Source: Cymodocea nodosa
Taxonomy: Eukaryota > Streptophyta > Magnoliopsida > Alismatales > Cymodoceaceae
Reading direction: 5' to 3'
Assembly: GCA_036874045.1 (NCBI GenBank)
Contig: CM072337.1
Coordinates: forward strand, 22,914,001-22,978,000
Length of the DNA: 64,000 nt
Of this stretch, positions 62,312 through 64,000 are shown piece by piece. A program made the position numbers and the translations under genes. The stretch's first letter is position 1, and each line of letters begins with the position of its first letter. The notes under the pieces were generated by a model. That model was not told where the DNA came from and searched no databases. It worked only from the letters and a program-made list of their open reading frames with translations.

Positions 62312-62316
62312 CTAAT
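62312..62316 (+). repeat. Target-site duplication, right copy (CTAAT)
   Basis: Matches 56,726-56,730. It is followed by GATATGTCGTGGAAGTCC, the continuation of the ABCC downstream segment. Confidence 0.85.
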
Positions 62317-62714
62317 GATATGTCGTGGAAGTCCAACAAGCATACAAATACTCGATCGTCGATAGCTGCTGTAACAATGGACCTCACGTGGCTTCAAGAG
62401 CCTTTGTGTTGTACCAACTGCTCCTCCACTCTCCTGTGGGGGCGTCATATCCCACCGCAAATCCATGTATCACTCCAACATAAAAAAGACGTTCAAATCG
62501 ATTTACAACGATGTGCCTTCTGTCGAGCAAGGAACCAATAATCCATGTCCTTACGAAAACTCTTGTCAATCTTCGCTTTTACAAGCTCTGAACAATATCC
62601 TTATGCATGGCAACCTGTGAGATGTTGGCAGCTGTAGTAGCTACTCCTTCATTTTCTACCATTCGTCTTCTGTTGACGATTTGACAACGCTGATTAATCC
62701 AGTTCTGTACACCT

Positions 62715-62720
62715 TTTATT
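62715..62720 (-). terminator. Polyadenylation signal of the second ABCC copy
   Basis: AATAAA on the minus strand at the position corresponding to 43,058-43,063. Confidence 0.45.
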
Positions 62721-63126
62721 AAGCTAGAGTATAGAACAGGACTCTAGATATAGTTAGTATCCATACAGCAGTTCTTTCGCAGAATAATGACGATAAGAGG
62801 AACAACTGCATTGTAAAAATTCCAATTTTTTCGGAGGAACATTTCCCACCTCTTCCTGTTCTACCAAAATAATTTATGCGCAAATCAAAAAATATGCTTG
62901 AAAGCTTAATTGAAGAGGATGTCAACTAATCATAATATTTTCCAGAGCAAAAATATGATAACGAAGTAGAAGCATTTCAATTTATACAAGTGAAGTTAGT
63001 TCCAGATAGGCTCTGCGGATTTGGTGAAACTTGCACCGTGTTCCAGCATTATGTTTTGGTCGATGGCGAAGCTGGCGAGACGCAGTCCGGTTTGTTTGCT
63101 TCAAAGAGTACGATAATGGCACTATA

Positions 63127-64000
63127 CTATAGACCAGAGGAACGATTGGCGTACTCTTGCACCAATGCACCAAAGAGTGACTGTTGTTCAATCAGCTTAG
63201 ATGGGTGATCAAATTCCTTTGCTAATCCTGTACAGAATTCAGCACATACGCTGAGAACTTTTGTGGTATCTTGACTAAGAATTAGAGATGCAATGAAGGA
63301 TTGAGAAAAAAAGTGAACCTGCATCAACAACCAGTACTCTATCACAATCCATTACTGTTGGTATTCTGTGAGCAATGCTGATTATTGTACACGTTGTGAA
63401 ATCTTCTCTGATGATTTTCTGAATCACTCCATCCGTCTGTGAATCTACTGAAGCCGTTGCCTCATCCATAAATAAAATGCGACTGTGCTTTAGCATAACC
63501 CGTCCTAAACATAGGAGTTGCCTTTGCCCAACACTCCAGTTATCCCCATTATCCACAACTAAGTATCACACAGGGAAAATGTCAAAAGCATGCTGTACAT
63601 CCAATTGTAAAAATGAGAACATTATTTGATGGCATTGTTAAAGAAATATCAAACCGAAATAAAGTTTTTTGGTGGAATCAGGCAAAATGGCTAGATATTC
63701 TAGTAAACGAAAATGAAATACTTGATCTTGGAAAGATAAGAGTTCAATTATGATGTTCATTCTCGTGGCATCTTTTAATCAATAAAACTAACCTCCAGCT
63801 AATTATTAAGAATAACATGGAATGTCTCTTTGTATGCTATGTCATATGATTACTTGTTTTAGAAATATTTGCTATAGAAGGAAGTTTGCTTGATAATGCT
63901 GCTAGCACTTGAACTATGTTAGAGTGTAGCATGCATCAGAAACTAAAATTAAAATCCAAAATTGTTATCAAAAACTTGAGATGGTGGGAATGGCTGATTT
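63127..64000 (-). CDS. ABCC: Second ABCC transporter gene, 3' end only
   Basis: The last two exons of a tandem ABCC paralogue are present: 63,558-63,319 (WSVGQRQL signature, [12 protein letters not shown]alker B, SIAHR) and 63,227-63,127 (ending YANRSSGL and a stop). The preceding intron continues to the window edge. The protein in these exons is identical to that of the first copy, and splice sites are conserved. Whether the remainder of the gene is intact lies outside the window. The copia element sits downstream of its stop and does not interrupt the coding exons seen. Confidence 0.9.

Follow-up and report, generated by a model that had tools for sequence, protein, structure and literature searches.

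Two tandem ABCC transporter genes of Cymodocea nodosa, referred to here as A and B, are copies from an old head-to-tail duplication with a unit of about 14 kb, and over 2,076 bp covering their exons 8–11 they carry no difference at all, with higher divergence on both sides. We consider that this identity most probably (about 78%) reflects recent ectopic gene conversion between the two copies, confined between two heterologous insertions in copy B. The window, that is, the whole stretch of DNA analyzed, comprises 64,000 nucleotides (22,914,001–22,978,000 of contig CM072337.1), and the genome searched amounts to 374.6 Mb in 28 contigs. The analysis was extended to the next 38 kb to the right of the window, and all coordinates past 64,000 simply continue the numbering of the window.

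The layout of the duplication can be followed in both directions. Comparison of the window with itself aligned A 42,521–42,644 with B 56,595–56,718 at 88.7% identity and A 42,652–44,343 with B 62,312–64,000 at 99.1% (12 mismatches and 3 gap columns). When the sequence past the window is included, the second block extends to A 42,652–45,429 and B 62,312–65,086 (99.5%); about 4.9 kb present only in B follow, and the correspondence then resumes between A 45,428–50,184 and B 70,024–74,775 (95.3%) and between A 50,313–52,607 and B 74,865–77,141 (96.7%). Moreover, the right end of unit A (56,093–56,580) has its counterpart upstream of gene B, at 80,911–81,489, which is what a head-to-tail arrangement with a unit of about 14 kb demands. 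Other genomic matches to this stretch are distant, with identities of 71% and 66% among the best candidates scored. Two local features of the units were also observed. Between the last two blocks lies a piece of intron 1 (A 50,185–50,312, B 74,776–74,864) in which the divergence of A and B is far above that of the rest; the two 250-bp bins there give 18% and 13%, and several indels occur. Upstream of gene A there are repeat blocks, 53,066–53,826 against 54,672–55,435 (83%) and 53,958–54,236 against 55,418–55,695 (91%), and no match to these repeats (53,066–55,695) was found upstream of gene B in 77,142–84,000.

Both genes appear intact. The predicted model of gene A has GT/AG borders at all 10 introns and a single, terminal stop. 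Residues 139–1,519 of its protein match "ABC transporter C family member 13" with 1,215 bits, the best phmmer match in PDB, and Pfam recognizes ABC_membrane and ABC_tran domains, so that the product has the makeup of a full-length plant ABCC (MRP-type) transporter, presumably resembling Arabidopsis ABCC4/14. The exons of gene B were positioned by alignment to gene A. It lies on the minus strand, shares the exon structure of gene A and has a 4,566-bp CDS for 1,521 aa, with GT/AG borders at 10 of 10 introns, one terminal stop and neither internal stops nor frameshifts. Of gene B, the window contains just exons 10 and 11, and we take exon 10 to carry the Walker B motif of NBD2; as the stop codon is at 63,129–63,127, the sequence from 62,312 to 63,126 is 3' flank or UTR. 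For exons 1–7, dN between A and B is 0.016 and dS is 0.054, and 44 of 1,285 residues differ. Copy B also has two LTR insertions absent from A and diverged unit ends of its own. It is thus a distinct complete gene, and the suspicion of the first-pass annotation that the assembly had duplicated a single locus is rejected. The coordinates of the features are given in Table 1. Elsewhere in the window, on visual inspection, a minus-strand frame beside the ABCC gene (41,122–41,532) resembles a universal stress protein gene and a plus-strand open frame of 406 aa (28,814–30,034) an F-box protein (EID1-like); neither has a Pfam match at 0.001.

Table 1. Features of the tandem ABCC duplication; positions above 64,000 lie past the right edge of the window.
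Feature	Position	Strand	Remarks
Duplication unit A	42,521–56,580	.	about 14.06 kb; left end is the start of homology to 56,595
Duplication unit B	56,595 to about 81,489	.	part within the window 56,595–64,000
ABCC gene A	43,470–52,479	-	11 exons, 1,521 aa; predicted spliced model, apparently intact
Gene B exon 11	63,127–63,227	-	last exon, with stop codon; identical to A 43,470–43,570
Gene B exon 10	63,319–63,558	-	identical to A 43,662–43,901
Transition zone	B 62,317–63,010	.	substitutions relative to A 6/111, then 6/583; one indel of 3 bp
Identical tract	A 43,354–45,429 = B 63,011–65,086	.	0 differences over 2,076 bp
LTR element 1 (degenerate Copia)	56,731–62,311	+	LTRs 56,731–56,994 and 62,067–62,311; in 3' flank of gene B
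Target-site duplication CTAAT of element 1	56,726–56,730 (left); 62,312–62,316 (right)	.	one copy on each side of element 1
Empty site CTAAT in copy A	42,652–42,656	.	single; matches the target-site duplication of element 1
LTR element 2	65,111–70,018		LTRs 65,111–65,341 and 69,801–70,018, both TG...CA

The divergence between A and B falls in steps toward the 3' exons, as the first-pass annotation had described. Left of the Copia element (element 1) 19 of 136 sites are substituted; to its right there are 6 substitutions in the first 111 aligned bp, where the 3-bp indel of the transition zone also falls, then 6 in 583 bp and none in the 990 bp from B 63,011 to the edge of the window. These steps are not due to chance: none of 1,000 permutations equalled the change-point at A 42,771, and 13 of 1,000 equalled a second one at A 43,354. 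The difference-free stretch of about 990 bp seen in the window is in fact the left half of the identical tract, since alignment past 64,000 extends the identity to 65,086, after which higher divergence returns. On the far side of intron 7, past element 2, 12 of 156 sites differ (7.7%). Exons 8–11 (711 bp), essentially NBD2 and the C-terminus, lie in the tract, and with them all of introns 8–10 (0/988), the adjacent part of intron 7 (0/261) and, in the 3' flank, another 116 bp.

A run of this length is far outside what the scattering of differences produces. The second-longest difference-free run is 328 bp, and the longest run obtained by chance over all sites was 403 bp in 2,000 permutations, against the 2,076 bp observed. 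When noncoding sites alone were considered, the observed run of 1,365 sites compares with a permutation maximum of 336 (5,000 permutations), and at the intron rate of 5.4% the probability of finding 0 differences in 1,365 noncoding sites is about 1e-33. A segment of intron 1 that aligns badly (A 50,020–50,337, 318 bp) was excluded from the permutations and from the intron count. Conversion is supported because the sequence 19/136, 0/2,076 and 12/156 bounds the identity on both sides within one duplication, and the run is longer than shuffled differences give. The proposal of the first-pass annotation that the 3' exons had undergone gene conversion therefore gains support from a tract that is bounded in this way in one old duplication and covers exons 8–11.

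Both of the insertions that flank the tract are LTR elements. Element 1 has the composition of a Copia LTR retrotransposon, with paired LTRs, a target-site duplication, a PBS-like TGGTATCAGAGC, which presumably matches a tRNA, and the Pfam domains Pol_BBD (58,621–59,010) and RVT_2 (60,566–61,147). The three plus-strand frames between its LTRs contain 100, 118 and 151 stops, and copy A retains a single empty CTAAT site; element 1 is therefore an old, broken insertion in copy B only. Before it inserted, the 136 bp on its left directly adjoined the part of the block now on its right. Element 2, which sits in intron 7 of copy B and is absent from A, has paired LTRs and is flanked by AGGAG and AAGAG, a target-site duplication with one mismatch. 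Two minus-strand reading pieces of it are both without a Pfam match at 0.001, and an RNase H-like C-terminus was seen by eye only. Between the tract and element 2 there are 24 bp, at B 65,087, that have no counterpart in A.

We further compared the divergence of the different parts in order to rank their ages. The unit ends differ at 19/136 sites on the left and 51/453 on the right, 70/589 when pooled (about 12%). The LTR pairs of the two elements differ at 71/461 sites when pooled (15.4%), which is not distinguishable from the unit ends (Fisher 0.10). Judged from these divergences, both insertions are of about the same age as the duplication, and the LTRs may change faster. In K2P terms the LTRs stand at 0.17–0.18 (0.18 for element 1), above the 0.12–0.13 of the unit ends, and if the elements postdate the duplication this needs faster change of the LTRs or chance. 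As LTRs so diverged are indistinguishable from the unit ends, the elements predate the identity, and both insertions are clearly older than the identical tract. The introns outside the tract, counted up to A 50,019, differ at 155 of 2,867 sites (5.4%), about half the divergence of the unit ends (p 7e-8). This low divergence of the introns in the gene body suggests that conversion had already acted along the gene in previous rounds; the contrast could instead be a regional difference in mutation rate.

Among the other explanations of the identity, the serious one lies in the assembly, and we regard it as unlikely and disfavoured relative to conversion. The interval of B between the two LTR elements might have been filled, merged or polished with sequence of A, or clipped A reads might have replaced the consensus of B; mis-mapped A reads would also produce an exact identity of 2 kb with an edge at the heterology. 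However, no more than about 2.8 kb separates the insertions specific to B (62,311 to 65,111), so that B reads of at least about 3 kb would span the tract, and the joined 102 kb contain no Ns at all. Moreover, divergence at the left edge declines through tiers of 6/111 and 6/583 to 0 where a clean step might otherwise be seen, and the rest of B is that of a complete gene distinct from A.

It is very improbable that the two copies simply diverged from an even-aged duplication without exchange, with constraint or mutation rate varying from region to region. In favour of such an account, divergence between A and B is in general lower in exons than in introns, but no difference occurs in introns 8–10 (0/988) or in the part of intron 7 within the tract (0/261), against 12/156 on the far side of that intron. 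The introns of the tract are as identical as its exons, so selection on the protein offers no explanation. Even-aged divergence is accordingly rejected for the 2,076-bp tract, but may account for the milder contrast that unit ends show with introns. A single recent unequal crossover, leaving a hybrid B that is B-type on the left and A-type rightwards of the crossover, would fit the data within the window save for the 1% tier, but it predicts identity to A onward through the gene and its upstream region, and it is rejected as scarcely credible because past 65,086 the copies again differ, with 95.3% identity across 4.76 kb and 96.7% across another 2.3 kb.

Under the preferred reading, gene conversion, an ABCC transporter gene was duplicated in tandem long ago, and LTR retrotransposons later entered copy B in its 3' flank and in intron 7. 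Ectopic (interlocus) conversion between A and B would then have taken place in the interval between the insertions, by strand invasion and copying within the homologous interval, and its latest event would have left the 2,076 bp with exons 8–11 identical. The two edges of the tract differ in form. On the right, the identity continues with no slack up to the very base that precedes the B-only stretch, and the first aligned base past element 2 already differs from A; the identity thus stops where homology is broken. The break in homology within intron 7 may have halted heteroduplex or branch migration. On the left, the identity fades between about 115 and about 700 bp from the Copia element. This fading over some 700 bp may represent the margin of a conversion that was older or was repaired in patches, and more than one event may be recorded. 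We infer a role of the insertions as barriers from a single coincidence that was recognized post hoc. Against such a role, the immediate neighbour of the tract is the 24-bp B-only stretch and not element 2 itself, and the left end of the tract lies away from the Copia element.

Gene conversion also occurs between human ABCC6 and its pseudogenes, which are closely similar partial copies. Unlike ABCC6 with its pseudogenes, both ABCC copies here look intact and neither looks pseudogene-like. A review of interlocus gene conversion and concerted evolution of duplicates (PMC3924837) states that conversion continues until substitutions, transposable-element insertions or other large indels disrupt pairing. 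There too, a tract is identical between paralogues and the rest stays diverged; however, exchange there ends for the whole pair, whereas here the tract flanked by two insertions would still have been homogenized after their arrival. In Arabidopsis, the RPP8 NLR family is likewise a plant family with tandem and distant copies and interlocus exchange (PMC6771003). That work concerns immune receptors studied in populations, with a tandem pair that exchanges little, whereas the present case is a pair of ABCC transporters in one assembly. A literature search, with subscription journals mostly outside its reach, found no description of this ABCC gene pair. The process is thus known, also in plant families with tandem copies, and the ABCC pair is a further, unusually legible example of it.

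The value of this locus is that the ages of duplication, insertion and conversion can be ranked from a single sequence, which makes it a compact natural example of a conversion tract ending where an insertion has broken homology. The position of the tract between two old LTR insertions adds interest to an otherwise clean case. It also carries a warning for the dating of this duplication, to which the 3' exons would give an age near zero, whereas the unit ends say about 12%. More speculatively, and doubtful at present, LTR insertions in introns may split a duplicated gene into conversion compartments, with retrotransposons setting which module stays shared between the copies. If this is true, the NBD2 between the insertions would evolve in concert in the two transporters, while the membrane domains and NBD1 would diverge.
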